DNA from: Shimia aestuarii
Lineage (GTDB): Bacteria > Pseudomonadota > Alphaproteobacteria > Rhodobacterales > Rhodobacteraceae
Direction: 5' to 3'
DNA: 64,000 nt
NCBI RefSeq assembly: GCF_900114635.1
Contig: NZ_FOTQ01000012.1
Span: forward strand, 1-64,000
Shown: positions 15,729 through 32,200 of the stretch, piece by piece
Layout: each line of letters begins with the position of its first letter
Numbering within the stretch: the first letter of the stretch is position 1
Position numbers and translations under genes: made by a program
The notes under the pieces: generated by a model
What the model was told of the DNA's origin: nothing
The model's database searches: none
Seen by the model: the letters and a program-made list of their open reading frames with translations, nothing else

Positions 15729-16748
15729 ATGAAAACAACGTCAAAAACCCTGACCATCGCGGCAGCCGCCGCCATTGCGGCCACAGGGGTCTTCGCGGAA
15801 ACCGAGCTGACGGTCTATACCGCGTTCGAGGCAGAGGATCTCAAGCGGTACGCCGACACGTTCAACGAAGCGCATCCGGACATCAAGATCAACTGGGTAC
15901 GCGACTCCACGGGCATCGTGACCGCGAAGCTTCTCGCGGAGAAAGACAATCCGCAGGCCGATGTTGTCTGGGGGCTGGCGGCAACGTCGTTACTGCTGCT
16001 CAAGAGCGAAGACATGCTGGAGCCCTACGCCCCCAAGGGTGTGGAGGCGCTCGATCCCAAATTCGTCGATTCCGACAACCCGCCCTACTGGGTCGGGCAG
16101 GACGCCTGGGCCGGCGCGATCTGCTACAACACGGTTGAGGCCGAGAAGAATGGCCTGACACCGCCGACGTCGTGGAAAGACCTGCATGACCCGATGTACA
16201 AGGGCCATATCATCATGCCCAACCCGAACTCGTCGGGCACCGGGTTCCTGGACGTTTCGAGCTGGTTGCAGATGTTTGGCGAAGAAGCCGGCTGGGACTA
16301 CATGGACGGGCTGCACGAGAACATCGCGCGCTATACCCATTCCGGTTCCAAGCCCTGCAAACTGGCCGCTTCGGGTGAAATTCCGATCGGGATCTCCTTT
16401 GCGTTCCGTGGCGCCAAGTCGAAAGCCGCAGGCGCGCCGCTCGAAGTGATCGTGCCGAGCGAAGGTGTTGGCTGGGACATGGAAGCGGGCGGTATCATTG
16501 CCGGGACCGCGAACCTTGAGGCCGCGCAGACGCTTCTGGACTTTGCAGTGAGCACGAAGGCCATGGAAATGTACAATGTTGGCTATGCCATCATCGGCAT
16601 ACCAAGCCTTGCCAAGCCGGTCGAACATTTCCCCGACGGTCTGAAGGACGCCCTGATCGAGAACGATTTCGAATGGGCCGCCAACAACCGCGCGGCGATC
16701 CTGGCCGAGTGGCAGAGCCGCTACGACGGCAAGTCGGACCCCAAGTAA
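15729..16748 (+). CDS. aepX: 2-aminoethylphosphonate ABC transporter substrate-binding protein (AepX/PhnS2 type)
   Basis: The 339-residue periplasmic receptor is predicted to capture 2-aminoethylphosphonate. The signal peptide (1-24) ends VFA-ETE. The mature protein starts ELTVYTAFEAEDLKRYADTF and contains DVVWGLAATSLLLLKSEDMLEPY, both characteristic of iron/phosphonate-type receptors of the AEP family. AGAGGAGC precedes the ATG. It heads an operon with an ATPase and a double permease and lies within 5.3 kb of phnW, which is the main support for AEP as ligand. Fe(III) receptors are related, but context favours AEP. The name follows the AepXVW system described in marine bacteria. Confidence 0.85.
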   Translation: MKTTSKTLTIAAAAAIAATGVFAETELTVYTAFEAEDLKRYADTFNEAHPDIKINWVRDSTGIVTAKLLAEKDNPQADVVWGLAATSLLLLKSEDMLEPYAPKGVEALDPKFVDSDNPPYWVGQDAWAGAICYNTVEAEKNGLTPPTSWKDLHDPMYKGHIIMPNPNSSGTGFLDVSSWLQMFGEEAGWDYMDGLHENIARYTHSGSKPCKLAASGEIPIGISFAFRGAKSKAAGAPLEVIVPSEGVGWDMEAGGIIAGTANLEAAQTLLDFAVSTKAMEMYNVGYAIIGIPSLAKPVEHFPDGLKDALIENDFEWAANNRAAILAEWQSRYDGKSDPK

Positions 16749-16866: not shown

Positions 16867-18018
16867 ATGAACGCGCTAAAATCGGCCCCCGTGCTTGCCC
16901 ACGAAGTCCCGGCCAAAGACCCTTATCTGGAGATTTCCGATCTCTGGAAGTTGTACGGAGATTTCGTCGCGCTGCGCGACGTGTCGCTCAAAGTTGAAGA
17001 GGGCGAGTTCGTCTGTTTCCTGGGGCCGTCGGGCTGTGGCAAGACCACCCTGTTGCGCGCCATTGCGGGGCTTGACCTGCAGACACGCGGCACGGTCATC
17101 CAGAATGGACAGGACGTGTCGAACCTGCCGCCATCGCGCCGCGATTTCGGGATCGTGTTCCAGTCGTATGCCCTGTTCCCCAACCTGACCATTCGCAAGA
17201 ATATCGCCTATGGGCTGGAAAACGCCGGGCGTAGCAAGGAAGAGATCACGGTACGCGTCACCGAGCTTCTGGACATGGTGGGCCTGAGCGAGCAGGGCAA
17301 CAAGTATCCGGCGCAGCTTTCGGGCGGGCAACAGCAGCGGATCGCGCTGGCGCGCGCCATCGCCACGTCGCCGGGGCTGCTTTTGCTGGATGAACCTCTG
17401 TCGGCGCTGGATGCCAAGGTGCGTGTACATCTGCGTCACGAGATCAAGGAGCTTCAGCGCAAGCTGGGCGTCACGACCGTCATGGTGACACATGACCAGG
17501 AAGAGGCGCTGTCCATGGCGGACCGCATCGTGGTCATGAACCATGGCGTGATCGAGCAGGTGGGCGCTCCGACCGAGGTATACAAGAACCCGGCGTCACT
17601 TTTCGTCGCGGGTTTCATCGGCGAGATGAACCAGCTTGAAGCACAGATCCTGAGCGAAAACCGTCTGCGCATCGGCAAGCATGAATTCGAGTGCCGCGAC
17701 CATGACTTTGATCCAGGCACAACCGTCGTTGCGGCGATCCGCCCGGATGACGTGGTGCCGCACGGGTCGGATTTCGTGCCGGACGCAGGCGCGAAGAACT
17801 GTGAGCTGGTGCGTATCGGGGACATGGAGTTCCTCGGGTCGTTCTGGCGCTGCCACCTGATCAGCGATGACTTCCACGGTGCCGAACTGATCGCGGACTT
17901 CTCGGTCAACGCAGTGCGCCGCCTGTCGCTGGCCACCAGGCAGGAGATCCATGTGGAGCTGCCGCGCGAAAACCTGATTGCATTCGCGCCCGAGGCACAA
18001 GGGGGCGACGATGACTGA
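16867..18018 (+). CDS. aepV: 2-aminoethylphosphonate ABC transporter ATP-binding protein (AepV/PhnT2 type)
   Basis: The 383-residue ATPase energises the AEP importer. Walker A GPSGCGKTT is at 53-61, the Q-loop in IVFQSYALFPN near 99, the signature LSGGQ at 151-155, Walker B LLLLDE at 171-176 and the switch His at 209. A C-terminal TOBE-like domain (about 255-370) is present, as in MalK- and PotA-like importers of this class. Its last eight bases overlap the permease start, so the two are translationally coupled. Confidence 0.87.
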   Translation: MNALKSAPVLAHEVPAKDPYLEISDLWKLYGDFVALRDVSLKVEEGEFVCFLGPSGCGKTTLLRAIAGLDLQTRGTVIQNGQDVSNLPPSRRDFGIVFQSYALFPNLTIRKNIAYGLENAGRSKEEITVRVTELLDMVGLSEQGNKYPAQLSGGQQQRIALARAIATSPGLLLLDEPLSALDAKVRVHLRHEIKELQRKLGVTTVMVTHDQEEALSMADRIVVMNHGVIEQVGAPTEVYKNPASLFVAGFIGEMNQLEAQILSENRLRIGKHEFECRDHDFDPGTTVVAAIRPDDVVPHGSDFVPDAGAKNCELVRIGDMEFLGSFWRCHLISDDFHGAELIADFSVNAVRRLSLATRQEIHVELPRENLIAFAPEAQGGDDD

Positions 18019-20020
18019 CGCCGCCACTCTTCCGCCCGGACGGGACGTGAAACCACGCCTGAGCCGAGATGACGTGATGATGCGATCATGGATGATCGTG
18101 ATCGCTCTTTACCTTGTCGTGACGCTGGTGTTTCCGCTTTATGCGATGCTGTCCAAGTCGTTCTCGACCTATCATTTTGATCTCGGCCAGTTCGAGTTCC
18201 AGGTTTCGGACGACGATGGCGTCTTTGCGACCGATCCGGTTCTGGCCAGCACGCTGAACGATCAACTGGGCGTGTTCGGCGAAGCCGATCTGCGCGCGGG
18301 CAGTGACGGGCGCCTTCCGGCCACCAAGCTGTTCCCGGATTTCAGCTTTCGCAGTTCGAAGATGTATCGCGTGCGCGGGACCAGTGACGAGGCGGTCTAT
18401 CTTGTCGGGTCGACGCGTCACAGCGGGACCGCGTGGCAGGAGCTGGATTCCAACACCTTCCGCCGGGTGCAGATGCGCCCCGTGTCGGGGACAGGCTTTG
18501 GCAACTTTGTCACCTATTTCTCGACACCGGCGCTTTCAAACTCGATCAAGAATTCGCTTGTGATCTCGACCATTGCGACCGTGTTGACGGTGACGTTGGC
18601 CTTTGGATTTGCCTATGCGCTCAACCGGTCCTGCCTGCGGTTCAAGGGGGCGTTCCGCATCATCGCCATGGCGCCGATCCTCGTGCCGTCGCTGTTGCCC
18701 GGTATCGCGCTGGTTTACCTGTTCGGTAATCAGGGCATGCTGAAGGAATTGCTGATGGGGCAGAGCATCTATGGCCCGATCGGTATCCTGATCGGATCCG
18801 TGTTCTTTACCTTTCCGCATGCGTTCCTGATCCTGTCGACAGCGCTGGCGATCTCGGATGCGCGGCTTTACGAGGCCGCCGACAGCCTTAAGACCTCGCC
18901 GTGGAAAACCTTCTGGACGGTGACGATCCCCGGCGCACGGTACGGCATCATCTCGGCAACTTTCGTGGTCTTCAACCTTGTCATCACCGATTTTGGCTTG
19001 CCCAAGGTGATTGGCGGACAATTCAATGTTCTGGCGGTCGACATCTACAAGCAGGTGATCGGGCAACAGAACTTTGAAATGGGCGCGGTGGTGTCGGTTG
19101 TCCTGCTGATCCCGGCGGTCTTTGCCTTTGCCATCGACCGTATCGTGCAGCGCCGCCAGGTGGCGCAGCTGTCGGCGCGGTCGGTGCCTTATGAGCCCAA
19201 ACCGCAGAAGGGGCGGGACCGGGTCGCGATGATCTACTGCTCGGTCATCGGCGTCTTCATCATCGGGCTGCTGGCCATCTGCCAGTATGCGGCCTTGATT
19301 AAGTTCTGGCCCTATGACCTGTCACTGAGCCTGAACAACTATCAGTTCGACCTGATGGACGGGGGCGGCTGGGGCAGCTATTTCAACTCGATCAAGCTGG
19401 GGCTTCTGACGGCGATTGTCGGCACGGGTGTCGTGTTCTTCGGGGCCTATCTTGTGGAAAAGGCAAACGGGTTCGAAATGGGGCGCGGCTTTTTCCAGAT
19501 GGTTGCGATGCTGCCGATGGCGGTGCCGGGGATGGTGCTGGGCCTGGCCTACATCTTCTTCTTCAACAACCCGGCCAACCCGCTGAACGCGATTTACGGC
19601 ACCATGGCCATTCTCGTGGTCTGCACAGTCACGCACTTTTACACGGTGTCCCACCTGACGGCCGTGACCGCGCTCAAGCAGATGGATCGTGAGTTTGAAT
19701 CGGTGTCGGCGTCGTTGAAACAGCCCACGATGAAGCTTTTCCGGCGTGTGACCGTGCCGGTGTGCTTGCCTGCGCTGCTGGACATCTCGATCTACCTGTT
19801 CGTGAACGCGATGACGACGGTTTCGGCGGTGGTGTTCCTGTATTCGCCCAAGACGGCGCTGGCTTCGATCGCGGTTTTGAACATGGATGATGCCGGGGAT
19901 ATCGCCCCCGCTGCGGCGATGGGCATGATGATCTTCTACACGAATGCCGCGGCGCGGATCATACACCTGCTCGTCTCACGCGGGTTGCTGACGCGCACCC
20001 AGGCCTGGCGGTTCCGCTAG
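18011..20020 (+). CDS. aepW: 2-aminoethylphosphonate ABC transporter permease, double-length (AepW/PhnU2 type)
   Basis: This 669-residue inner-membrane protein contains two ABC permease units in one chain. The first has its EAA loop at YEAADSLKTSPWKTFWTVTIPGA and the second at FESVSASLKQPTMKLFRRVTVPVC. Each half has about six membrane helices. A large extracytoplasmic segment (about 55-175) follows the first helix. One polypeptide therefore replaces the usual two permease subunits. The ATG at 18011 is favoured over an upstream in-frame ATG because it gives the usual short overlap with the ATPase gene. It is convergent with the LysR gene. Confidence 0.87.
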   Translation: MTDAATLPPGRDVKPRLSRDDVMMRSWMIVIALYLVVTLVFPLYAMLSKSFSTYHFDLGQFEFQVSDDDGVFATDPVLASTLNDQLGVFGEADLRAGSDGRLPATKLFPDFSFRSSKMYRVRGTSDEAVYLVGSTRHSGTAWQELDSNTFRRVQMRPVSGTGFGNFVTYFSTPALSNSIKNSLVISTIATVLTVTLAFGFAYALNRSCLRFKGAFRIIAMAPILVPSLLPGIALVYLFGNQGMLKELLMGQSIYGPIGILIGSVFFTFPHAFLILSTALAISDARLYEAADSLKTSPWKTFWTVTIPGARYGIISATFVVFNLVITDFGLPKVIGGQFNVLAVDIYKQVIGQQNFEMGAVVSVVLLIPAVFAFAIDRIVQRRQVAQLSARSVPYEPKPQKGRDRVAMIYCSVIGVFIIGLLAICQYAALIKFWPYDLSLSLNNYQFDLMDGGGWGSYFNSIKLGLLTAIVGTGVVFFGAYLVEKANGFEMGRGFFQMVAMLPMAVPGMVLGLAYIFFFNNPANPLNAIYGTMAILVVCTVTHFYTVSHLTAVTALKQMDREFESVSASLKQPTMKLFRRVTVPVCLPALLDISIYLFVNAMTTVSAVVFLYSPKTALASIAVLNMDDAGDIAPAAAMGMMIFYTNAAARIIHLLVSRGLLTRTQAWRFR

Positions 20021-20038: not shown

Positions 20039-20070
20039 CGGGCGGTTCGGATTACTCCGGGCCGCCCGTT
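20039..20070 (+). terminator. Terminator at the end of the AEP transporter operon
   Basis: CGGGCGG (20039-20045) pairs with CCGCCCG (20062-20068) and runs into TTT. It overlaps the last codons of the convergent LysR gene. Confidence 0.45.
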
Positions 20071-20939
20071 TCCGTTGAGAGGTAGCGGTTGGCCAGATCC
20101 ATGAAGGACCGGATGACACGGACCTCGCCGCGCTGGGCCAGGTGAACGATGGATTCCGGCATGCGGGTGTCGACGTTCAGGATGGGGATTTGCTCGATCC
20201 GGTCGTCGTGGCTGTATTCCGCTTCGGACACGAAGCCGATACCGCCGCCGGACAGAACAATGGACCGCACCGCCTCGCGCCCCTCGGCCACGATGGCGGG
20301 TTCCAGCGCCACGCCGAGCTTTGCCGCCTCGTCGACGACCATTTGACGAGTCCGGGACCGCTCTTCGCGGAAAATGAGCGGGTATTGCGCGATTTGCTGC
20401 ATGGTCATGCCCGCAGCGCCCTCTTTGAGAGTGCCGCGTCGGGCAAAGGCGATGATCTCGCTCGCGCCGATGCTGAGCGAGGTCAGTTCGCGGGAGGTGG
20501 GAACCTGCCCGACCACGCCGATTTCGGCGTTGTACTGGCGCAGCTGGTCAAGGATTTCCTCGGAGTTGCCCGAGCGCAGTGAAATCCGCACATTGGGATA
20601 ATTGGCCCGGAATTTTGCGAGCACGTCGGTGACGTGCTGGGCGGAGTCCGCGACGATGCGCAATTCTCCTGATACAGCGGCGTTTCGTTCAGACAGGTAT
20701 TCGCCGATCTGCGTTTCGATGTCGAAATACTGCTTGGTCAGGTGAAACAGCTCTTCGCCCGCGCTTGTCAGGACAACCTGTCGTTTCTTGCGTTCGAACA
20801 GCAGGACATCATTTTCGACTTCGAGATTCTTGACCTGTTCCGACACTGCCGGCTGGGTCAGGTGCAGAACCTCGGCAGCCTTCGAAAAGCCGCCAAGATG
20901 CGCGACGTAGTGAAAGGCTCTGAGCTGGCTGTGGCGCAT
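20052..20939 (-). CDS. LysR-family regulator of phosphonate genes
   Basis: The 295-residue regulator has a clear LysR helix-turn-helix (residues 1-60: LRAFHYVAHLGGFSKAAEVLHLTQPAVSEQVKNLE) and an effector-binding domain with AGEELFHLTKQYF in the linker. It lies between the AEP import operon (convergent) and phnW (divergent), so it is the natural candidate to activate both when AEP or an intermediate is present. The ATAGG-N5-CCTAT box lies 22-36 bases upstream of its start codon and would allow autoregulation. Confidence 0.88.
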   Translation of the reverse strand: MRHSQLRAFHYVAHLGGFSKAAEVLHLTQPAVSEQVKNLEVENDVLLFERKKRQVVLTSAGEELFHLTKQYFDIETQIGEYLSERNAAVSGELRIVADSAQHVTDVLAKFRANYPNVRISLRSGNSEEILDQLRQYNAEIGVVGQVPTSRELTSLSIGASEIIAFARRGTLKEGAAGMTMQQIAQYPLIFREERSRTRQMVVDEAAKLGVALEPAIVAEGREAVRSIVLSGGGIGFVSEAEYSHDDRIEQIPILNVDTRMPESIVHLAQRGEVRVIRSFMDLANRYLSTETGGPE

Positions 20940-20960
20940 GGGAAGGGCTCACTTTTTTGG

Positions 20961-20975
20961 ATAGGGTTGACCTAT
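20961..20975. promoter_or_regulatory. LysR-type operator in the lysR/phnW divergent promoter
   Basis: ATAGG-GTTGA-CCTAT is a perfect 5-bp inverted repeat with T-N11-A geometry, 80 bases upstream of the phnW ATG and 21 upstream of the regulator start. A one-mismatch relative lies before the transporter operon at 15599-15613. Confidence 0.65.
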
Positions 20976-21054
20976 ACATAAATCACAATTTTCAATTTCT
21001 CATATGACGCAAGGCTTGGCAATTTGTTTTCAGAACAGTTTGGGAATCAAAGCC

Positions 21055-22242
21055 ATGACCAGCCAAAAAACTCCGATTGCACCTCCGAAGCTTGGCGAGC
21101 CGTACCTGCTGACGCCGGGTCCGTTGACCACGGCCTATGAAACCAAGGAAGCGATGCTGCGCGACTGGGGCAGCTGGGACGGCGATTTTCGGGCCATGAC
21201 GGCCGAGATGCGCACCCGCCTGCTGGACATGCTTGGGCCCGGTAAAGAAGAGTTCGACTGTGTCCCGATGCAGGGCAGCGGGACCTTTGCAGTCGAGGCC
21301 ATGCTGGGATCGCTCACAGCGCGGGATAGCAAGATCCTTGTTCTGGCCAACGGGGCTTATGGTCAGCGCTCTGCCAAGACGCTTGCTTATCTGGGGCGCG
21401 ATCACGTGGTTCTGGACAAGGGGGATTACCTGCCGCCGCGTGGTGACGAGGTCGCGCAGATCCTGGCAGATGATCCGGCGATCACCCATGTCGTGGCTAT
21501 TCATTGCGAAACCTCGTCGGGCATTCTGAACCCGGTTGGGGAAATCTCGGACGCGGTCTATGCCGCTGGACGCAAGCTGCTGATCGACTCGATGTCGGCC
21601 TTTGGCGCGATCGAGCTGCGCCCGTCGGAAGTGCGGTTCGAGGCTTTGGTGTCGTCCGCGAACAAGTGCATCGAGGGTGTGCCGGGGTTCGGCTTCGTGC
21701 TGGCGCGCAAATCCGAGCTGGAAGCGGCCAAGGGCAACTGCCAGTCTTTGAGCCTGGATGTGCATGATCAGTGGGCGCACATGGAAAAGACGGGGCAGTG
21801 GCGGTTTACCCCCCCGACCCACGCGGTGGCGGCCTTCCTGACGGCGCTGCGCGCCCATGAAGCGGAAGGTGGCGTGGCCGGTCGCGGTGGTCGTTACACC
21901 GCCAACCGGGACACGCTGGTGGCGGGCATGCGCGACATCGGGCTTGAGACGCTGTTGCAGGATCGCTGGCTGAGCCCGATCATCGTGACGTTCTTCTGCC
22001 CGGATGATCCGAAGTTCAGCTTTGACCGTTTCTACGACCTGATGAAAGCGAAGAACTTCATCATCTACCCCGGCAAATTGACCATTGTCGACAGCTTCCG
22101 TGTCGGCTGTATTGGCCAGATGGATGAGCACGTGATGCGGCAGGTTGTCGAGGCAACACGTGAAACACTGAATGAAATGGGCGTGACCAACGCCGCGCCC
22201 CCGGAAATTGCAATCAAGGAACGCGCCAAGCTGGCGGCCTGA
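21055..22242 (+). CDS. phnW: 2-aminoethylphosphonate--pyruvate transaminase
   Basis: PhnW transfers the amino group of AEP to pyruvate, giving phosphonoacetaldehyde and alanine. The 395-residue protein has the family start YLLTPGPLTTAYETKEAMLRDWGSWD (17-42), Asp178 (LIDSMSAFG), which holds the cofactor ring, and the PLP lysine Lys204 in SSANKCIEGVPGFGFVLA. The C-terminal IIYPGKLTIVDSFRVGCIG is also diagnostic. It is about 25 residues longer than many PhnW proteins at the N terminus. The ATG at 21055 has only a weak ribosome binding site; the upstream ATG at 21004 has none. It heads the phnW-phnA-phnY-pbfA operon. Confidence 0.93.
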   Translation: MTSQKTPIAPPKLGEPYLLTPGPLTTAYETKEAMLRDWGSWDGDFRAMTAEMRTRLLDMLGPGKEEFDCVPMQGSGTFAVEAMLGSLTARDSKILVLANGAYGQRSAKTLAYLGRDHVVLDKGDYLPPRGDEVAQILADDPAITHVVAIHCETSSGILNPVGEISDAVYAAGRKLLIDSMSAFGAIELRPSEVRFEALVSSANKCIEGVPGFGFVLARKSELEAAKGNCQSLSLDVHDQWAHMEKTGQWRFTPPTHAVAAFLTALRAHEAEGGVAGRGGRYTANRDTLVAGMRDIGLETLLQDRWLSPIIVTFFCPDDPKFSFDRFYDLMKAKNFIIYPGKLTIVDSFRVGCIGQMDEHVMRQVVEATRETLNEMGVTNAAPPEIAIKERAKLAA

Positions 22243-22261
22243 GACGAAAAAAGGAACCACC

Positions 22262-23509
22262 ATGACCATTCACACCCCCGTCGAAGCGAACGAGCGCGTA
22301 TACCCGACCCCCAAGGTGCCCGCCGTGGCGATCTGCCTGGATGGCTGCGAGCCGGAATACCTGGATGTGGCCATTGCCAAGGGGCTGATGCCCAACCTCA
22401 AGCGCATGCGCGAGGAAGGCACGGACCGGCTGGCGCATTCGGTGATCCCGTCCTTCACCAACCCCAACAACTTGTCGATTGCCACCGGGCGTCCTCCGAT
22501 CGTGCACGGCATCTGCGGCAACTACCTGATCGACCCGGATACGGGCGAAGAAGTGATGATGAACGACGTGCGCTTCCTGCGCGCGCCGACGATCTTTTCG
22601 CAGTTCTACGATGCGGGGTTCCGGGTTGCGATGGTGACCGCCAAGGACAAGCTGCGCGCCTTGCTGGGGGCGGGTCTGAAGTTTGACGAAGACCGCGCAG
22701 TTGCGTTTTCGTCGGAGCGGTCCGGGGAAACGACCAAGGCGGACCACGGTATCGACAACGCGTCGGAGTGGCTGGGCATGGAAGTGCCCGAGGTCTATTC
22801 GGCAGAGCTTAGCGAGTTTGTCTTTGCTGCCGGTGTGAAGCTGCTCAAAGAGTTCAAACCGGACGTGATGTATCTTTCGACCACCGACTACATTCAGCAC
22901 AAGTTTGCCCCCGAGCAGCAGGGCGCGCTCGACTTTTATGCGATGTTCGATCGCTATCTTGGCGAGCTGGACGCGCTGGGCGCAGCCATTGTCGTGACTG
23001 CGGACCACGGCATGAAGCCCAAGCACCATGCCGACGGCACGCCGAACGTGATCTATGCGCAGGACCTTCTGGACGTGTGGCTGGGCAAGGACGAGGCCCG
23101 CGTGATCCTGCCGATCACCGACCCCTATGTGGTTCACCACGGAGCGTTGGGCTCGTTTGCCACGGCCTACCTTCCGGAAGAGGCGGATCGCGCCAAGGTC
23201 ATGGAGAAGCTGCGCGCGCAGAAGGGCATCACCCATGTCCTGACCAAGGAAGAGGCGATTGAACGGTTCGAGCTTCCGGGCGACCGGATCGGTGATATCG
23301 TGATGGTGTCGGGAGAAAATATCTGCATCGGCACTTCGGAGCATCGCCACGACCTTGCCGCGTTGAAAGAGCCGCTGCGCAGCCACGGTGGTCTGACCGA
23401 GCAGGAAGTCCCGTTCATCGTCAACCGCAAGGTCGACCTGCCGTCGAACCCGGCCGAACTGCGCAACTTCGATGCATTCTTCTATGCCACGACCGCGGCG
23501 GCGCTTTGA
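22262..23509 (+). CDS. phnA: Phosphonoacetate hydrolase
   Basis: PhnA of the alkaline phosphatase superfamily splits the C-P bond of phosphonoacetate, giving acetate and phosphate. The 415-residue protein has the first metal Asp27 in CLDGCEP and the nucleophile Thr66 in SFTNPNNLS. The second metal site lies in [14 protein letters not shown], and a late histidine in [11 protein letters not shown] completes it. The overall order matches Sinorhizobium PhnA. AAAAAAGGAACC precedes the ATG. It follows phnW by 19 bases and phnY starts one base after its stop, so the three are one transcript. It is not the unrelated zinc-ribbon protein also called PhnA in E. coli. Confidence 0.94.
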
Positions 23510-23510
23510 G

Positions 23511-24974
23511 ATGGACGGCGTCATGACCGAAAGTGAAATCCGCAACGAGGGCATGCGCATCGGTGGCGAGGTCGTCTTTACGGACGACGTCGTACCGGTG
23601 CACTATCCCTACACCAACGAGGTGGTTGGGACGGTTCCGGCGGGCAAGGCCGAACACGCCGCACGCGCGTTCGAGATTGCCGCCAACTACAAGTCGACAC
23701 TCAGCCGCTATGAACGCAGTCAGATTCTCACCCGCGCGGGTGAACTGATTGGCGAGAAACGCGACTGGCTGGCGAAATGGCTGACGCTGGAACTTGGCAT
23801 CTGTCACCAACACGCGATCTACGAGACCAAGCGGGCGCAGGATGTGTTTGGCTTTGCCGCGCAGATGGCGCTGGTGGATGATGGCGAGATTTTCTCGTGC
23901 GATCTCACGCATAACGGCAAAGAGCGCAAGATCTTTACCAAGCGCGAGCCGGTGCGGGCGATTTCGGCCATCACGCCGTTCAACCATCCGCTCAACATGG
24001 TCAGCCACAAGATCGCGCCCGCAGTGGCTACCAATAACTGTGTTGTCTGCAAGCCGACCGAGCTGACCCCGCTCACGGCGATTGCGCTGGCGGACATTCT
24101 CTATGAGGCGGGCTTGCCGCCCGAGATGTTCCAGATCGTGACCGGGTGGCCGCAGGACATCGGCGAAGAGATGATGCTCAACGACAATATCGACATCATC
24201 ACCTTCACGGGCGGCGTGCCCGTGGGCAAGCTGATTGCGTCGAAGGCGGGGTACAAGCGGCTGGCGCTGGAACTGGGCGGGAATGATCCGCTGATCGTTC
24301 TGAATGATCTGGAAGATGCGGATCTCGACAAGGCCGCGACCATTGCCGTGGCCGGGGCCACTGGCAACTCGGGTCAGCGGTGCACCGCCGTCAAGCGCAT
24401 CCTTGTGCAGGAAAGCGTCGCGGACAGGTTCGTGCCGCTGGTTCTGGAAAAGGCCAAGGCGCTCAAATTCGGCGATCCGATGGACCCGGAAACCCAGCTG
24501 GGCTGCGTGGTGCACGAGCAAGCGGCGGAGCTGTTTGAAAAGCGCGTCTACATGGCCGAGGAAGAAGGGGCCAAGATTCTCTATCACCCGGGGCGCCAGG
24601 GCGCGTTGTTGCCGCCCATCGTCGTGGATCACGTGCGCCATGACAGCGAGCTGGTGATGGAAGAGACCTTTGGCCCGATCGTGCCGATCGTGCGGGTGCC
24701 GGATGATGACGTTGAAGTCATGCGGATTTCCAACTCGACCCAGTTCGGTCTGTCTTCGGGGGTTTGCACCAACGATCTCAACCGCGCGATTGCCTATATC
24801 AACGGGCTCGACGTTGGCACCTGCAACATCTGGGAACAGCCCGGCTACCGGATCGAGATGTCCCCCTTCGGTGGCATCAAGGACAGTGGCAACGCGGTCA
24901 AGGAAGGCGTGCAGGAAGCGATGAAATTCTTCACCAACCAGAAGACTTATTCGTTGCCGTGGCCGGGGGCGTGA
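23511..24974 (+). CDS. phnY: Phosphonoacetaldehyde dehydrogenase
   Basis: PhnY oxidises phosphonoacetaldehyde to phosphonoacetate with NAD+. The 487-residue aldehyde dehydrogenase has the nucleophile Cys291 (SGQRC) and the general-base Glu254 (LELGG). Phosphonate-contacting residues remembered for the Sinorhizobium enzyme (Arg108, His159, Arg290) occur at the same numbers when translation starts at 23511, which supports this start over an in-frame ATG at 23523. The gene begins one base after the phnA stop. Together with PhnW and PhnA it completes the pathway from AEP to acetate plus phosphate without a phosphonatase (PhnX). Confidence 0.94.
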
Positions 24975-25003
24975 GCAGCCCGCAATAAATGAAAAACCGA
25001 AGA

Positions 25004-25027
25004 GCGCGGGCCGCTGGGAGCCCGCGC
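25004..25027 (+). other. Intra-operon hairpin between phnY and pbfA
   Basis: GCGCGGGC (25004-25011) and GCCCGCGC (25020-25027) form a perfect 8-bp GC stem with an 8-base loop in the 68-base spacer. No T tract follows. It ends 15 bases before the pbfA start and 7 bases before its ribosome binding site, so it could affect mRNA stability or pbfA translation. Confidence 0.5.
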
Positions 25028-25042
25028 AACACAGGGGGCACA

Positions 25043-26398
25043 ATGGCTGTAAATCTCGTTCACACGGAAGGTGAGTCCAATACTTCCGACGCCCGCCGCG
25101 CATGGGCAGACAAGGCTGTTGGCCCGAAATCTGCCCCGCTTCTGGCGCGGGATGCGGATGCGTTCCTTCACCAGAGCCTGTCGAGCCCTTGCGTGAGCAC
25201 GATCGAAAAGGCCGAAGGCATATGGATCACCGACCGTGACGGGCGGGTGTTCATGGATTTTCATGGCAACTCGGTGCATCACATCGGCTATGGGCACCCC
25301 AAGGTCGTCGCGGCGATCAAGGATCAGCTCGATACGCTGCCCTTTGCGCCGCGCCGGTTCACCAACGAGCCCGCTGTTGCGCTGGCCGAGAAACTCGCCG
25401 CCATTGCGCCAGGTGAACTTGGCAAGGTTCTGTTCACCACCGGCGGGTCGGACGCCAACGAAGTTGCGCTCAAGATCGCGCGGGCGGCGACCGGGCGGTT
25501 CAAGACAATTTCGTTCTGGGATTCCTTTCACGGGGCGGGCTTTGGCGCGGCTTCGGTCGGTGGCGAGGCGACGTTCCGCAGCCATATCGCGGGGCCGCTT
25601 TTGCCGGGGACCGAGCATGTCGCGCCCTTTGCCTGTTATCGCTGCCCCTATGGGCACGCCGGGCCGGAGAGCTGCGGGTTGGCCTGTGCAAACATGGTTG
25701 ATTTCGTGCTCGAGCGGGAAGGCGATGTTGCCGCCGTGATCGCCGAGCCGATGCGCGCCGTGCCTTACGTGCCGCCGCCGGGGTTCTGGAAGGCGGTGCG
25801 CGAGGCCTGCAATCGCCGGGGCGCCCTGTTGATCATGGATGAGATTCCGACGGGGTTAGGGAAGACCGGACGCATGTTCGCCTTTGAACATGACGACATC
25901 ATTCCCGACATCGTGACCATGGGCAAGGCGCTTGGCGGGGGCATTCTTCCCATTGCGGCCTGTATCGCGCGCAAATCTCTGGATGTGTGCGGTGATTTCG
26001 CGATTGGTCACTACACCCACGAGAAGAACCCGGTCACGACGCGCGCCGCGTTGGCGACCATTGAGGTGATCGAGGAAGAAGGGCTGGTGGAGCGCGCCGC
26101 CGAGATCGGAGAGATCGCGATGGGGCGTCTGCGGGACGAGCTGGCGCATGTGCCCATCGTGGGCGATATCCGCGGGCGCGGCACCATGTTCGGCGTCGAG
26201 ATTGTCACGGATCGCGCAACACGCGAACCGGGCCATGCGCTTGCGGAACAGATCTATTACGCCTGTCTGGAAGGCGGGGTCAGTTTCAAGATCAGCCAAG
26301 GCTGCGTGTTGACCCTGTCACCGCCGATGACGATCTCGGATGAAGACCTTCACAAGGCGCTGGGTGTCGTCATCGCGTCGATCAAGGCCGCAATTTGA
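25043..26398 (+). CDS. pbfA: (R)-1-hydroxy-2-aminoethylphosphonate ammonia-lyase, PbfA type
   Basis: The 451-residue protein belongs to fold-type I class III aminotransferases: Asp266 (LLIMDEIPTG), PLP Lys295 (TMGKALGGG) and a cysteine-containing CYRCPYG loop (198-204) are present. In phnWAY clusters an enzyme of this type, PbfA, is not a transaminase. It eliminates ammonia from (R)-1-hydroxy-AEP to give phosphonoacetaldehyde, so the organism can feed a second natural phosphonate into PhnY-PhnA. Assignment rests on family resemblance plus its place directly downstream of phnY; sequence alone does not exclude a plain transaminase. CAGGGGGC precedes the ATG. Confidence 0.8.
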   Translation: MAVNLVHTEGESNTSDARRAWADKAVGPKSAPLLARDADAFLHQSLSSPCVSTIEKAEGIWITDRDGRVFMDFHGNSVHHIGYGHPKVVAAIKDQLDTLPFAPRRFTNEPAVALAEKLAAIAPGELGKVLFTTGGSDANEVALKIARAATGRFKTISFWDSFHGAGFGAASVGGEATFRSHIAGPLLPGTEHVAPFACYRCPYGHAGPESCGLACANMVDFVLEREGDVAAVIAEPMRAVPYVPPPGFWKAVREACNRRGALLIMDEIPTGLGKTGRMFAFEHDDIIPDIVTMGKALGGGILPIAACIARKSLDVCGDFAIGHYTHEKNPVTTRAALATIEVIEEEGLVERAAEIGEIAMGRLRDELAHVPIVGDIRGRGTMFGVEIVTDRATREPGHALAEQIYYACLEGGVSFKISQGCVLTLSPPMTISDEDLHKALGVVIASIKAAI

Positions 26399-26486
26399 CT
26401 GTGCTTTTTGCGAATTGCATCAGATAATGGCCGTTCGAACCCACCCGAACGCGGGTAGAGATTATTGACGGCAGGAGCCTGACCCC

Positions 26487-28166
26487 ATGGATATCATCCG
26501 TTTCCTGATCAGTCTTGCCGGGGCCACGATGCTGTTGCTGTTTGCGGTGCGCATGGTGCGCACGGGGATCGAGCGAAGTTTCGGGGCGTCGTTCCAGAGG
26601 TTGCTGACCTCGAACAACAGCCTTGTCGGTGCGGCCACGGTGGGGATTGCGCTGGCGATCGTCTTGCAGAGTTCGGCGGCCGTGGCGTTGCTGGCGACCG
26701 GGTTCTCTGCCGGGGGCTACATGAGTTTTGCGACCGCGTTGGCGGTGGTGCTCGGGGGCGATCTGGGCTCGGCGCTGGTGATCCAGGTGCTGTCTTTCCG
26801 GCTGGATTGGCTGGTGCCGGTGCTGCTGGCCTTTGGCGGGTGGATGTTCGTCAAGGTCGAGCAGAAACGCTGGCGTCAGCTTGGGCGAATCCTCATGGGG
26901 GTGGCGTTCATTCTGATTTCGCTGCGCTTTCTGCGCGAGGCGATGGACCCGATCCGCGACAGCGCCTTTCTGCCCGCGATCTCGAACTACCTCGCACAGG
27001 ATTACGTGACCGCGTTCATCGTTGGCGCGGTGCTGGCCTTTGTGATGCATTCCAGCGTGGCCGCGATCCTGATGTGCGTGACCCTTGTGCAGATTGGCGC
27101 GCTGCCCTTTGCGGCGGGACTTTCTCTGGTGTTGGGCGCCAATTTCGGAAGTGCCTTCATTCCGGTCTGGCTGAGCCGGGGACAGCCGGTGTCGGCGCGG
27201 CGGATTCCGTATGCCAACCTTGGATTGCGCGGCAGTCTCGCCAGTCTGGCGTTGGTGATTTTGAACACCCTGTTCGATCCCGCCATGCTGATCATCGCGT
27301 CCCCGGCGCAGTCACTGATCTATGCACATATCGGGTTCAACCTTGTGCTTCTGGTATTGGCCCTGCCGGTGTGCCGTCTTTTGGAGACGCCAGTGCGGCA
27401 GCTTTTCCCGGACCCGCAGACGGCGCAGGAACATGACCCGACCAAGGATGTACCCGGCGCGGCGCTAGACCCCGAGGCGGTGGACCGTCCTGCGCGCGCG
27501 ATTGCCTGCATCAAGCAGGAACTTCTGCGTATGACCGAGCGTGTCGAGGGCATGTTCCGTCCCGTCCTCAGCATTTACGAAGACACTGACCCGCAAAGCA
27601 TCGCGGCAGTGCGTGCCCGAGATCTCGAGGTAAATGACAGCCTTGCCAGCATCCGGGACTATGTCGCGTCCATTCCGCGCAAGACCTGCTCGAAGGCCGA
27701 GTTGAAGACCATCCGGGGGTTGATGGAATATGCCATCCGGCTTGAAACGGCGGGGGACGTCGTGGCCAAACGCCTGACCGCGATTGCCGAGGAAAGACGC
27801 GAGGCCGGCGCACGGTTTTCGCGCGAGGGCTGGTCGGAATTGATCCGCATTCAGGAATCCATCCTGGCCAATCTGCGCCTTGCCAAGAATGTGCTCTTGT
27901 CGGATGACCTTGAGAGTGCGCGCCTGTTGATGACCGAGAAGACCGAGGTGAAACGGTTGGAATACACGAGCCGCAAGCGCCACCTGAAACGGCTTCAGAA
28001 CGGGGACCGGGACAGCATGCAATCAAGCGACATGCATCTGGAGACGATCCGCGCGTTCCGCGAATTCAACAGCCATATTGCGGCTGTGGCCTATCCGATC
28101 CTGTACCGCAACGGACAACTGCTCGAAACGCGGTTGATCGAGGATATGGAGCCGGCAGAAAGCTGA
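26487..28166 (+). CDS. Na+/phosphate cotransporter-family protein with C-terminal PhoU-like domain
   Basis: The 559-residue inner-membrane protein has two Na/Pi-cotransporter repeats in about residues 1-310. The first carries the signature LQSSAAVALLATGFSAGGY, and the second the variant MHSSVAAILMCVTLVQIG, where QSS has become HSS. A cytoplasmic, helical PhoU-like domain follows (about 335-550). Members such as YjbB of E. coli export phosphate, while others import it. It lies 88 bases downstream of pbfA on the same strand, so it probably handles the phosphate freed by PhnA. Direction of transport is inferred from context. Confidence 0.85.
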   Translation: MDIIRFLISLAGATMLLLFAVRMVRTGIERSFGASFQRLLTSNNSLVGAATVGIALAIVLQSSAAVALLATGFSAGGYMSFATALAVVLGGDLGSALVIQVLSFRLDWLVPVLLAFGGWMFVKVEQKRWRQLGRILMGVAFILISLRFLREAMDPIRDSAFLPAISNYLAQDYVTAFIVGAVLAFVMHSSVAAILMCVTLVQIGALPFAAGLSLVLGANFGSAFIPVWLSRGQPVSARRIPYANLGLRGSLASLALVILNTLFDPAMLIIASPAQSLIYAHIGFNLVLLVLALPVCRLLETPVRQLFPDPQTAQEHDPTKDVPGAALDPEAVDRPARAIACIKQELLRMTERVEGMFRPVLSIYEDTDPQSIAAVRARDLEVNDSLASIRDYVASIPRKTCSKAELKTIRGLMEYAIRLETAGDVVAKRLTAIAEERREAGARFSREGWSELIRIQESILANLRLAKNVLLSDDLESARLLMTEKTEVKRLEYTSRKRHLKRLQNGDRDSMQSSDMHLETIRAFREFNSHIAAVAYPILYRNGQLLETRLIEDMEPAES

Positions 28167-28194
28167 TCCGGGCAAGGGAGGTCCTGCCAAGCCG

Positions 28195-29184
28195 ATGAAG
28201 ATTGTTCGAACCGACTGCGAGCTGGAGACGCCGCTCGTCGACAAGGCGCTGCGCGAGGCGGGGCATGAGCTGGTCTTGTTGCCCGATGGGGTGTCGCAGG
28301 ATGAGCTGATCGCCGCTGTGCGCGATGCCGAAATTTTGCTGATGTGCTATACGCCGGTACCGCGCGCGGTGATCGAAGCCGCGCCCAAGCTGCGTGGGAT
28401 CGTGAAATACGGCGTGGGTATTGATGCCATCGACACGGTGGCGGCCCATGAACACGGCGTGAGTGTCGTCAATATCCCCGAATACGCCGAGGAAACCGTG
28501 GCCGAGGGGGCGTTTGCGCTCATGATCGCTTTGGCCAAGCGGCTTCCGGCACTGCGGGACGAGATGAATCGGGCGGGGTGGACATGGCCCGAGTCGCGCT
28601 GGCTGGGGTCGGATATTGCCGGGCAGACGGTGGGGATCGTCGGATTTGGCAAGATCGGGCGCAGCATGGCGCGCATGGCTGGGCAGGGATTCCGGGCCAA
28701 CGTGATCGCCTTTGATCGGCGCGCGAGCGCGGAGGAGATGCGGTCTCTGGGTGTCACCAAGGTCGACAGTCTTGAGGCGCTGGCGGCGCAGTCGGATTTC
28801 GTCACGATACACGCGACGCTTTCGGCGGAGTCCCGTGGCATGTTCGGCGCAAACCAAATTGCCGCGATGAAGCCGACCGCCTTTCTGATCAACACTGCGC
28901 GGGGGGCCATCGTTGATGAGACGGCGCTTGCCCATGCCATTCTTGAAGGCCGGATCGCGGGGGGCGGGCTTGACGTGTTTTCACAAGAGCCGTTGAACCG
29001 GGCAGATCATCCGCTGAAAGACCTGTTCGACCTGCCGAATGTCATCCTGTCGCCGCACCTGACATTCTATACCCGACAAGCCATGGAGCGGCTTGAGACC
29101 GAGACCTTGGAGCGTTGTTTCGAGTTGATTGAGGGGCGGGAGGTGTTGATCAAGTCAAGCGACCCGCGCTTGCAGGTCCGGTAG
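28195..29184 (+). CDS. D-2-hydroxyacid dehydrogenase family protein
   Basis: This 329-residue NAD(P)-dependent oxidoreductase has the Rossmann motif GIVGFGKIG (about 147-155), the substrate Arg in NTARGAIVDE, the catalytic Glu region in DVFSQEPL and the catalytic His in LSPHLTFY. This is the family of phosphoglycerate, lactate and glyoxylate/hydroxypyruvate reductases; the substrate is not evident. It starts 28 bases after the Na+/Pi gene and is followed by a strong terminator, so it is the last gene of the phosphonate unit. It might process a 2-oxo or 2-hydroxy acid derived from a phosphonate or from pyruvate turnover, which is speculation. Confidence 0.85.
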   Translation: MKIVRTDCELETPLVDKALREAGHELVLLPDGVSQDELIAAVRDAEILLMCYTPVPRAVIEAAPKLRGIVKYGVGIDAIDTVAAHEHGVSVVNIPEYAEETVAEGAFALMIALAKRLPALRDEMNRAGWTWPESRWLGSDIAGQTVGIVGFGKIGRSMARMAGQGFRANVIAFDRRASAEEMRSLGVTKVDSLEALAAQSDFVTIHATLSAESRGMFGANQIAAMKPTAFLINTARGAIVDETALAHAILEGRIAGGGLDVFSQEPLNRADHPLKDLFDLPNVILSPHLTFYTRQAMERLETETLERCFELIEGREVLIKSSDPRLQVR

Positions 29185-29207
29185 CAGGGGCGTTTTCAAC
29201 GGGCTTG

Positions 29208-29243
29208 CCCGCCCCTTGCCGCGTAGCGACAGGGGCGGGTTTT
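29208..29243 (+). terminator. Terminator at the end of the phosphonate operon
   Basis: CCCGCCCC (29208-29215) pairs with GGGGCGGG (29232-29239), followed by TTTT. It lies 23 bases after the dehydrogenase stop and next to the convergent RND pump gene. Confidence 0.7.
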
Positions 29244-29247
29244 GGCG

Positions 29248-32200
29248 TCAGGTCTTGAAGACCCGGTAGATCGCAGGGATCACCAGCACCGTAAGCAGGG
29301 TGGAGCTGAGCAAACCGAAGAGCAGCGAAATTGCCAGCCCTTGGAAGATCGGGTCAAACAGGATCACACCGGCCCCGATCATGGCGGCGATGGCCGTCAG
29401 GAGGATGGGTTTAAAGCGGATGGCGCCCGCGTCGATCAGGATATCCAGCTCGGATTTCCCGTCGCGGTCCGCATGGCGGATGAAATCGACCAGCAGTATC
29501 GAGTTGCGCACGATGATCCCGGCCAGCGCGATGAACCCGATCATCGACGGGGCCGAGAAGGGCGCGTTCAGCCACCAGTGCCCAAGCATGATCCCGAGAA
29601 AGGTCAGCGGAACCGGCGTCAGCACCACCAGCGGCAGGCGGAACGACCCGAACTGTGCCACGACAAGGATGTAGATCCCCAGAAGTGCGACGGCAAAGGC
29701 AGCGCCCATATCGCGGAAAGTGATTGCCGTGACCTCCCATTCACCATCCCAAAGCAGGGTCGGGTGGCTTTCGTCGGTGGGTTGCCCGAGAAGCTTGATC
29801 TGCGGTTTCTGCCCCTCGGGCCAGTCCATCCGGTCCAGCGCGTCGGACACGGCCATCATGCCATACAGCGGGCTTTCATAGGTGCCGGCCAGCTCGGCCA
29901 TGACCATTTCGGCGGCGCGGCCATTGTGGCGGAAAATCGGGAATGAGGCGTATTCTTCGGAGATTTCGACCACGTCGCCCAGTTCGACCACGCCCCGCGC
30001 ACCGGGCAGTACGTTGGCCGGAACGGGGGTGGACAGGAAGCGTTCGTCCATGACCCGGTCGGATTTGTCACGTTCGACACGGATCGGGATGGGGTAGCGC
30101 CCTTCGCCCCGGTGGGAATAGCCCACGACCGACCCATGGTTGAGTAGGGCGAGCGTCGAGAACACATCTTGTTCCTGCACCCCGAAGAATTCGAGCTGGT
30201 CCGGGGAAATGCTGGCGCGCAGCTTGCGGGGCTGTTCGCCGAAACTGTCATCCACGTCGACGATGAAGGGCACGCTTTCGAACGCGGCGCGAATCTTGCG
30301 GGCGGTGTCGCGGCGGGTTTCCAGGTCAGGGCCATAAACCTCGGCCAGAAGCGTGGAAATGACTGGCGGTCCGGGGGGCGGCTCGACCGTCTTGAGGCTG
30401 GTACCGGCAGGCAGGTCGAGCGTGTTCAGACGTTCACGGATATCGAGCGCGATATCGTGGCTGGTCCGGTCGCGGTGATGCTTGGCATCAAGGTTGATCT
30501 GGACATCGCCCAGATGGGGGCGTTCACGCAGGTAGTAGTGGCGCACAAGCCCGTTGAAGTTGAACGGTGCGGCGTCGCCCGCATGGGTTTGCACGGAAAG
30601 GACCTCGGGCAGGTCGAGAACGGCGTTGGCAACCTGTTGCGCCACCGCATCCGTCGCTTCGACCGCGCTGCCTTCGGGCATGTCGATGACCACCGACAGT
30701 TCGGATTTGTTGTCGAAGGGGAGCAGTTTGACGGTCACATCCTTGGTGTAGAGCATGGCGAGCGAGCCAAAGGACAGGCCCGCCGCGACCAGCAGAAACA
30801 GACCGCTGCGCCCCTTGGAGGCCAGAACCGGTTTTGCGACGGCGGCATAGGCGCGCCCGAGCGCGCCGCCGGAATGGGCGCCCGCGTCGTCATGATGGGC
30901 CGGGGCCTTGCCGCTGACCTTGACCATCAGCCATGGGGTGATGATCACCGCGACGAAAAAGGAAAAGATCATCGCTGCGGAGGCATTGACCGGGATCGGG
31001 CTCATGTAGGGACCCATGAGGCCGGACACGAAGAGCATCGGCAGAAGGGCGGCCACCACGGTCAGGGTGGCGACGATGGTGGGATTGCCAACCTCGGCCA
31101 CGGCGCGAACCGCCTTGGTCACGCGGTCGCTCTTGTCCGGCATGCCCCAGTGGCGCGCAATATTCTCGATCACCACGATGGCGTCATCGACAAGGATGCC
31201 GATGGAAAAGATCAGTGCAAAGAGCGACACGCGGTTCAGCGTGTATCCAAGAACCCAGGCTGCAAAGAGGGTCAGCAGGATCGTCACCGGAATGACGATG
31301 GCCACGACGATGCTTTCGCGCCAGCCAATGGCGATCAGCACAAGGCCGACGATTGAAATCGTTGCGAGGCCGAGGTGGAACAGCAGCTCGTTGGCCTTTT
31401 CGTCCGCCGTCTCACCATAGTCGCGGGTCACGGCGATTTCGATGCTATCCGGGATCAGCTTCCCTTCGAGCGCATGGACAGAATGCAGGATTTCCTCGGC
31501 CACGAGCACAGCGTTGGCCCCGGCACGCTTGGCCAGGGCAAGGGTGACGGCGGGAGCCCGGTGCAGGTCGCCGTTTTCATCCCTTGTGACGTTGGAGACG
31601 ATCTTTTCCGCGCCATTGGCGACAAAGGACACGTCGGCCACGTCACGCACATAGACGGGCCGGTTGTCGCGCGAGGTCAGCAACAGGTTGCCGATTTCGG
31701 AAGGCGTTTTCAGGGTCTCTCCGGCGACGAGCATGATCTGTTGGCCCTGATCGCGCACCATACCGGTCGAGAAGGAGGTGTTCGCGCCCTGCACCTTGCC
31801 GGCAAGCTGTTGCAGGGTCACGCCGTAAAGCGCCAGCCTTTCGGGATCGGGGGCGATGCGGATGGCTTCGTCGGTTTCGCCGACGATATAGGTAAAGCCC
31901 ACGTCGCCGATCTTGGCCAGTTCCACCTGCAGCTCGCGCGCGACGCGGGTGAGATCGTTGGCGGTGATGTTCTTGGCGTCATGGCGAGGGGTCAGCGTCA
32001 GCGACACGATGGCGACGTCATCAATTCCGCGCCCGACGATCAGGGGCTCGTCGATGCCGACCGGAATACGATCCATGTTCGCGCGGATTTTTTCGTGCAC
32101 GCGCAGGATTGCCGTATCCGAGGAGGTGCCCACGATGAAGCGGGCGGTGATCATGGCATAGTCGTCCTGGGTCTGGGAGTAGACATGTTCGACCCCGTTC

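Follow-up and report, generated by a model that had tools for sequence, protein, structure and literature searches.

Analysis of the 64,000-nucleotide window (the whole stretch of Shimia aestuarii DNA studied here) revealed a gene for a Na/Pi-cotransporter-family protein with a PhoU domain inside a cluster of genes for aminophosphonate catabolism (Table 1). The open reading frame of this Na/Pi gene, which was judged to be real, starts with ATG, and a Shine-Dalgarno-like AGGAG, recognized by eye, ends 9 nt ahead of the start codon. As stated in the original prediction, the gene lies directly downstream of pbfA, beginning 88 nt after the pbfA stop. The same prediction missed the gene that follows on the same strand after a gap of 28 nt. 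This following gene (28195-29184) belongs to the D-2-hydroxyacid dehydrogenase family (PF02826), and its product is 71% identical to that of a gene near phnWAY-pbfA of Aliiroseovarius crassostreae (L022), a species given as a PbfF carrier in Table 1 of PMC12366243 (the comparison holds at the level of the species, not of the accession). PbfF was shown to be a HAEP racemase (PMC12366243), and the gene at 28195-29184 is, by its sequence, probably pbfF. Its position right after the Na/Pi gene makes the latter internal to the cluster, between pbfA and pbfF. With a pbfF present, the cluster is also predicted to use both HAEP enantiomers.

No promoter consensus was found across 20900-29300, the gaps on either side of the Na/Pi gene included, and neither the 88-nt nor the 28-nt gap contained a terminator-like site. 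The RNA fold of the 88-nt gap was not better than that of shuffled sequences (z 0.64). That the 88-nt gap holds an attenuator or a terminator was therefore rejected, as there is neither a terminator-like site nor an unusual fold. Gaps of 88 and 28 nt lacking promoter and terminator consensus are only consistent with one transcript shared with pbfA and pbfF. At the N-terminus of PhnA no obvious signal peptide was seen by eye.

Table 1. Features of the aminophosphonate cluster surrounding the Na/Pi gene (positions in the window; scores against profile models with their cut-offs).
Feature	Position	Strand	Evidence or remark
phnS2/aepS-like 2-AEP ABC transporter substrate-binding protein	15729..16748	+	TIGR03261 510.5 bits, cut-off 392.75
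phnT2/aepT-like ATPase	16867..18018	+	TIGR03265 523.2 bits, cut-off 457.7
phnU2/aepU-like permease, start uncertain	18011..20020	+	TIGR03262 792.1 bits, cut-off 593.25
LysR-type regulator, divergent to phnW	20052..20939	-	best model TIGR03339 phn_lysR 260.8 bits, below cut-off 341.1
phnW, 2-AEP:pyruvate transaminase	21055..22242	+	TIGR02326 464.9 bits (cut-off 400.8), NF010006 544.6 bits (cut-off 296); start by eye
phnA, phosphonoacetate hydrolase, Pi-freeing step	22262..23509	+	TIGR02335 501.9 bits, cut-off 407.55
phnY, phosphonoacetaldehyde dehydrogenase, start uncertain	23511..24974	+	TIGR03250 741.2 bits, cut-off 635.65
pbfA	24989..26398	+	NF049939 668.7 bits, cut-off 525
88-nt gap between pbfA and the Na/Pi gene	26399..26486	+	promoter/terminator consensus absent, fold ordinary
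Na/Pi-cotransporter-family + PhoU protein, YjbB-like, 559 aa	26487..28166	+	
repeat 1 motif QSSA, residues 61-64	26667..26678	+	model: helix break at 61-62
repeat 2 motif HSSV, residues 188-191	27048..27059	+	model: helix break at 188-189
C-terminal PhoU domain, residues ~335-545	27489..28121	+	Pfam and fold match
probable pbfF, 2-amino-1-hydroxyethylphosphonate racemase (S-HAEP), PF02826 family	28195..29184	+	

Linkage of the Na/Pi gene to phosphonate genes was assessed in 394 genomes of the source organism's family, about one per genus (393 genera); to judge from named relatives, this is the Roseobacter/Rhodobacter family. Both phnA and Na/Pi matches were called at E<=1e-60, and up to three Na/Pi candidates were scored per genome, so that extra copies may be missed. 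Homologues were divided into A and B by an identity cut of about 43% (42.5%) to the Na/Pi protein, which does not define a clade; on the tree the 'B' rows L148 and L176 stand among A, and several further B rows lie outside the main B group. phnA was present in 55 of the 394 genomes (in 53 of them above the family's cut-off) and a Na/Pi match in 135. A homologues were detected in 53 genomes, and 32 of these also carried phnA, compared to 7.4 expected (Fisher OR 21, p 1.3e-18), while B homologues were found in 85 genomes, 15 of them with phnA (OR 1.4, p 0.29); as genomes and loci are related, all p-values given here are optimistic. Position gave the same picture: in 21 of the 394 genomes, the source genome included, phnA and an A homologue were less than 12 kb apart, at distances of 1.3-11.3 kb and on the same strand in 21/21 cases, whereas no B homologue came that close to phnA in any of the 394. 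One genome (G184) carries the A/phnA pair twice, apparently on redundant contig ends, and was counted once. Chance placement of the Na/Pi gene was rejected on the basis of this linkage. Both where A homologues occur and where they are placed thus depend strongly on phnA, and this linkage is recurrent, co-directional and beyond chance; the co-occurrence check suggested along with the original prediction turned out in its favor.

The place of the Na/Pi gene within the clusters varies. It precedes phnW in L053, L060, and L066 and aepS in L059, follows phnY in L063 and L068 and pbfA in L054, L062, and the source locus, and elsewhere follows a DeoR or EamA gene. At least 19 label changes were counted on the tree, of which 15 are forced by well-supported branches. 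pbfA was commoner in linked (16/21) than in unlinked phnA loci (14/34; p 0.014).

The Na/Pi gene is not universal among phnA genomes, and some loci do not fit. In 34 of the 55 phnA genomes the contig carrying phnA showed no A gene up to 12 kb away; 8 of these 34 regions are under 19 kb, and fragmented genomes can hide linkage, as in G089, where the Na/Pi gene stands beside aepSTU, phnW, and pbfA (L129) and phnA on another contig (L097). Any Na/Pi match was found in 46/55 phnA genomes vs 89/339 others, and among genomes without A, B was present in 14/23 with phnA vs 68/318 without (p 1e-4). The remaining 9 genomes with phnA lacked any Na/Pi match at E<=1e-60, so that other exits for Pi must exist. 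The claim that the gene would explain Pi release by AEP-using bacteria proved too broad in view of the 34 and 9 genomes just described. The sole sampled congener (G210) had neither phnA nor a Na/Pi match at these cut-offs.

PhnI, PhnJ (E<=1e-20), Pit, and PstB (>50% identity) were not found in the fetched A loci, and the source genome encodes PstB and Pit elsewhere, away from the Na/Pi gene. A homologues were rarer in genomes with PhnJ (17/53, expected 27, OR 0.40), and so was phnA (17/55, expected 28.1). However, B homologues showed the same deficit (31/85, expected 43.4, OR 0.47), and a negative association specific to A was therefore rejected; the A-PhnJ deficit lends weak support. The absence of a positive link to C-P lyase speaks weakly against a starvation importer.

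The Na/Pi protein matched PF02690 with 120.2 bits over two stretches and the PhoU domain PF01895 with 36.6 bits (aa 346-425), both above the curated Pfam cut-offs. E. coli YjbB has this domain set in common with it, two PF02690 stretches and a C-terminal PhoU domain (the likeness extends to YjbB of E. coli/Salmonella). The second PF02690 protein of the source genome, C18 (L107:9414-11231), carries the motifs QSSS/QSSH, had no PhoU match and aligned to the solved SLC34A2a sequences with E 4.6e-13. The Na/Pi protein is 29.2% identical to YjbB vs 18.8% to this paralog. In SLC34 Na+-Pi symporters the Gln of the QSSS-type motif has a functional role in both repeats. The NptA/SLC34 importers and the Na/Pi protein belong to the same Pfam family, but the latter has QSSA and HSSV, without Gln in the second motif, where the aligned SLC34A2a chains have QSS and QSSS. 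At the repeat-2 site (188) YjbB has Tyr and C18 Gln; among 112 homologues Gln was observed in two (0/53 A, 2/40 B, 0/19 class-wide). YjbB also shares the D in the repeat-1 'LGxD' motif. Residues Q61, S62, H188, S189, S190, and V191 were invariant in 20 homologues of the Na/Pi protein, and a profile of its homologues gave a weak alignment to SLC34A2a (E 0.011). As an SLC34-like protein of the same genome, C18 offers a natural comparison of import vs export.

Among the profile models, TIGR01013 scored 569 bits for YjbB, 112.8 for the Na/Pi protein and 57.5 for C18, and the Na/Pi protein stayed under two curated cut-offs that YjbB passes (TIGR00704, 155.2 vs 210.1; TIGR01013, 112.8 vs 306.15). 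NF037997 Na_Pi_symport (cut-off 50) was passed by the Na/Pi protein (113.5 bits), YjbB (140.2), and C18 (162.6) and therefore does not discriminate. In a quick tree of 114 rows, YjbB shared a group (SH-aLRT 97) with all 19 class-wide loci plus a single row from the family. The Na/Pi gene fell into the neighboring group of 86 rows (SH-aLRT 100); C18 is both the sole SLC34-like row and the outgroup of this tree, with long branches meeting at the root, so that the tree has no power on the split between YjbB and NptA/SLC34. Domains, motifs, and identity all bring the Na/Pi protein closer to YjbB than to the SLC34-like C18. Given the missed cut-offs and the limits of the tree, it is a YjbB-like relative, not a YjbB orthologue. 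The genomic setting differs as well, as E. coli yjbB sits between metH and pepE. YjbB has been called a Pi exporter on data that use plasmid expression (PMC11389368) and was reported to be not sufficient for Pi import (PMC13170248). The word 'exporter' does not appear in the annotations examined for the alphaproteobacterial members of the Na/Pi protein's family, whose name says symporter.

A structure model of the Na/Pi protein reached modest confidence (mean pLDDT 78.1, pTM 0.50). Its helices break at residues 61-62 and 188-189, the sites of the two motifs, and its C-terminal part matched Pseudomonas aeruginosa PhoU (4q25) with a TM score of 0.86 by target length and E 1.6e-3, the best of the PhoU structures that the Foldseek search gave for this part; no row reached E<=0.001. 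The PhoU domain is thereby supported by the modeled fold. For the membrane part, the PDB offered no credible structural match, and searching its sequences with the protein by itself returned zero matches.

The association with phosphonate genes extends beyond the family. In a class-wide sample of 385 genomes (matches at E<=1e-90 only), 22 had a Na/Pi match, 44 phnA, and 14 both (OR 19). Outside the source family, phnA was present in 13 of 19 genomes with a Na/Pi match vs 43/380 overall. All 19 non-family loci were examined, and in nine of them phosphonate genes adjoin the Na/Pi gene. The nine represent five families: f2, f37 (four genomes, all from a single genus), f66 (two, likewise from a single genus), f127, and f155. 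The Na/Pi proteins of these nine are 38-41% identical to YjbB. A similar arrangement is present in Aminobacter sp. MSH1 (L207), with the order LysR(-), Na/Pi, phnW, phnA, phnY, DMT, aepSTU and a Na/Pi protein 46.8% identical to that of the source.

Gene neighborhoods within 10 kb were compared between 55 A loci (the source locus, 20 linked and 34 others) and 40 B loci chosen by hand from 89 B matches. For a locus to be scored as phosphonate, either PhnW or PhnA sufficed, as did any two members of the set. Among the A loci, 21 had phosphonate genes, 8 an ethanolamine gene set, 23 IMPase and/or PehA, and 15, of which some are at contig ends, none of these, and a row of DeoR, IMPase, and Na/Pi was common; among the B loci, none had phosphonate or ethanolamine genes, one had IMPase/PehA, and 39 had none. 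One IMPase and one PehA N-terminus, inspected by eye, showed no obvious signal peptide. In Sinorhizobium the neighbors of the Na/Pi gene include genes annotated as IMPase, as dual-specificity phosphatase, or as metallophosphoesterase. In L212 and L215 of this genus the row reads IMPase, dual-specificity phosphatase, metallophosphoesterase, Na/Pi, LacI, ABC transporter, and a second IMPase, resembling an inositol- or sugar-phosphate catabolic set. In Rhodobacter CZR27 the Na/Pi gene precedes ugpBAEC. In L134 a PhnD-type binding-protein gene adjoins the Na/Pi gene, which would also suit a setting of uptake.

Among plasmid matches, 13 regions were examined, which were chosen by hand and are not independent, and two of them lack annotation. 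Genes named for organophosphorus cleavage or uptake were nearby in 10 of the 11 annotated regions, one of these ten being a Devosia region that lacks an annotated Na/Pi gene and in which 58% of the query is matched. The exception is Ruegeria pomeroyi DSS-3, whose Na/Pi locus contains no annotated Pi-releasing gene. Two Ti plasmids have the Na/Pi gene before sucrose phosphorylase and traR, adjoining genes for a DeoR-family protein, an ABC transporter, a GDPD-family phosphodiesterase, and IMPase, and an At plasmid has a similar gene set. On these Agrobacterium/Rhizobium plasmids with agrocinopine-type genes, the YjbB-like Na/Pi genes are at L209:10932-12584, L210:10932-12590, and L216:7932-9593; in L210 an epimerase gene stands between the Na/Pi gene and the genes on the traR side. 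From their annotation we read the Ti and At regions as acc/arc, the agrocinopine regulon of Ti plasmids. Like the source locus, this regulon would include a Na/Pi gene (PF02690 + PhoU), there ahead of sucrose phosphorylase and traR; its substrate is a sugar phosphodiester instead, and the identity between the Na/Pi protein and the L191 homologue is 38.2%. AccF is described as a phosphodiesterase that cleaves agrocinopine in the cytoplasm and AccG as a putative phosphatase (PMC4526662), and acc and arc are induced together (PMC3907764). The accessible text of both papers does not discuss the Na/Pi gene of these regions.

Ethanolamine genes form a further setting. Six loci (L006, L015, L036, L108, L112, L121) have the row PehA(-), DeoR, IMPase, Na/Pi, FGase, GS-like, ALDH, Fe-ADH, and a PotABCD-like ABC transporter, except that FGase was not called in L036 and the transporter is absent in L121. 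By gene content these PehA-DeoR-IMPase loci are candidates for taking up an ethanolamine phosphate ester intact and for gamma-glutamylating ethanolamine. In L126 and L136 the Na/Pi gene is inside an operon of the order FGase, TRAP, Na/Pi, GS, ALDH, with Fe-ADH also in L126; scans detected DctQ, DctM, and DctP in L126 and DctM and DctP in L136, and L127, with the same spacing, is probably of the same kind. In these loci, probably including L127, the Na/Pi gene lies between etoX-like and ethanolamine gamma-glutamylase-like genes, with no scored phosphatase nearby. Upstream in L136 are pbfA and pbfF. Ethanolamine catabolism by itself does not release Pi. The ethanolamine operons of L126, L136, and probably L127 are left unexplained by a Pi valve. 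The gene order of L126 and L136 is that of the Phaeobacter MED193 ethanolamine genes (PMC10132767) with the Na/Pi gene added.

We consider it likely that the Na/Pi protein is a YjbB-like valve for Pi export in the aminophosphonate cluster of a marine-type bacterium. Gene content and order, domains, motifs, and recurrent linkage are read directly from the sequences, and from them we infer the following scheme. The cluster would degrade AEP, R-HAEP, and, through PbfF, S-HAEP. AEP would enter via the AepSTU-like transporter, PhnW, PbfA, and PbfF would lead to phosphonoacetaldehyde, PhnY to phosphonoacetate, and PhnA would cleave the latter to acetate and Pi within the cell. Cells that draw N or C from the substrate would be left with most of its Pi as surplus, which the Na/Pi protein would release, its PhoU domain gating the exit by Pi status. 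The QSSA/HSSV residues may mean weak Na+ coupling, in which case the membrane potential could drive the anion out. Induction of the Na/Pi gene would occur with the cluster, through LysR and as one transcript.

The role of the Na/Pi protein looks wider than phosphonates, to judge from its neighbors, and may concern operons that free Pi inside the cell. The original prediction, in which the gene serves AEP catabolism as a release valve for Pi, is thus partly supported, by the co-occurrence and position of A and phnA and by the YjbB-like loci of other families, and needs correction in its restriction to phosphonates. On the broader proposal our judgment is evenly balanced: YjbB-like Na/Pi-PhoU proteins might constitute a dedicated 'Pi exit' module, repeatedly recruited into operons that import organophosphorus compounds for N or C and cleave them inside, with AEP/HAEP, agrocinopine opines, inositol or glycerol phosphates, and perhaps phosphoethanolamine as substrates.

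Could the protein instead import 2-aminoethyl phosph(on)ates (AEP, HAEP, or phosphoethanolamine) with Na+, its changed motifs reflecting a changed substrate? AEP and phosphoethanolamine are analogues, A neighbors include phosphonate, phosphatase, and ethanolamine genes, and the operons in L126 and L136 fit such an importer better than a valve. In 12 of the 21 linked loci aepSTU was absent within the fetched region. Nevertheless, aepSTU was not less frequent in linked (9/21) than in unlinked phnA loci (8/34; p 0.15) and was next door in 6 of the 9 linked loci of other families. The relatives found with agrocinopine-type, phosphatase, and Ugp genes have ABC transporters of their own, which makes Pi the likelier common factor; that the substrates differ and come with their own importers, while the released Pi is seemingly common, is our main argument for Pi export over phosphonate import, and we regard the latter as unlikely.

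An ordinary Na+-coupled Pi importer that is in the cluster by happenstance would agree with the family name and with Staphylococcus aureus NptA, which has a PhoU domain and imports Pi (PMC13170248). Against this stand the non-random linkage, the YjbB-like motifs and the lack of PhnI, PhnJ, Pst, and Pit genes in the fetched A loci, with PstB and Pit encoded elsewhere in the genome; moreover, an importer would gain the cell little beside enzymes that free Pi inside. We consider this reading highly improbable. NptA also bears on the idea that the protein is mainly a sensor, its PhoU domain reporting Pi flux to PhoR or the cluster regulator and transport being secondary: the PhoU domain of NptA affects PhoPR signaling in S. 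aureus (PMC13170248), and that of the Na/Pi protein is present with a matching fold. A sensor is nevertheless very unlikely, given the invariant residues of the membrane motifs and the absence of any link to PhoR from all results obtained here. Export of Pi remains the preferred reading.

Bacteria that use AEP as N source release or export Pi, which can feed primary production (PMC8316502); the accessible text of that study does not name the Pi exporter. The phnWYA-pbfA-pbfF clusters of PMC12366243 have the same gene set and are alphaproteobacterial, like the one described here. Differently from our locus, the words 'cotransporter' and 'symporter' do not occur in the main text of that paper, where Figure 2, outside this count, marks 'putative transporter genes'; nor do they occur in the main text of PMC8154272, PMC8316502, PMC10590968, or PMC9381506. 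In the full-text passages covered here, mainly those of open papers, no Na/Pi or YjbB gene was linked to phosphonate clusters. The Na/Pi gene is therewith a specific, deletable candidate for the Pi exporter of AEP users and comes with a genome-wide marker. If the 'Pi exit' module holds true, Pi-insensitive AEP mineralization would have its missing exporter in this gene, and a copy next to phnA would be the mark of cells that do not keep their Pi but regenerate it to the benefit of the community. A possible role is also offered for those Na/Pi genes whose neighbors are of the agrocinopine, phosphatase, or Ugp kind. For Pho-independent headgroup catabolism, a route left open in the accessible part of PMC10132767, the PehA-DeoR-IMPase loci might supply a candidate gene set.

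Some minor observations were made along the way. The locus L025, from a record titled Nocardioides marinus, is of Roseobacter type, and the record name is probably wrong. On the megaplasmid of R. pomeroyi DSS-3 (L206:10685-14618), the genes that come after Na/Pi encode an EamA protein and two FAD-binding oxidoreductases. An EamA-type membrane protein matching TIGR03340 'phosphonate utilization associated' below the cut-off (for example L008:11841-12680) is encoded in 18 of the 55 A loci, and this gene recurs in phosphonate and non-phosphonate Na/Pi loci alike.
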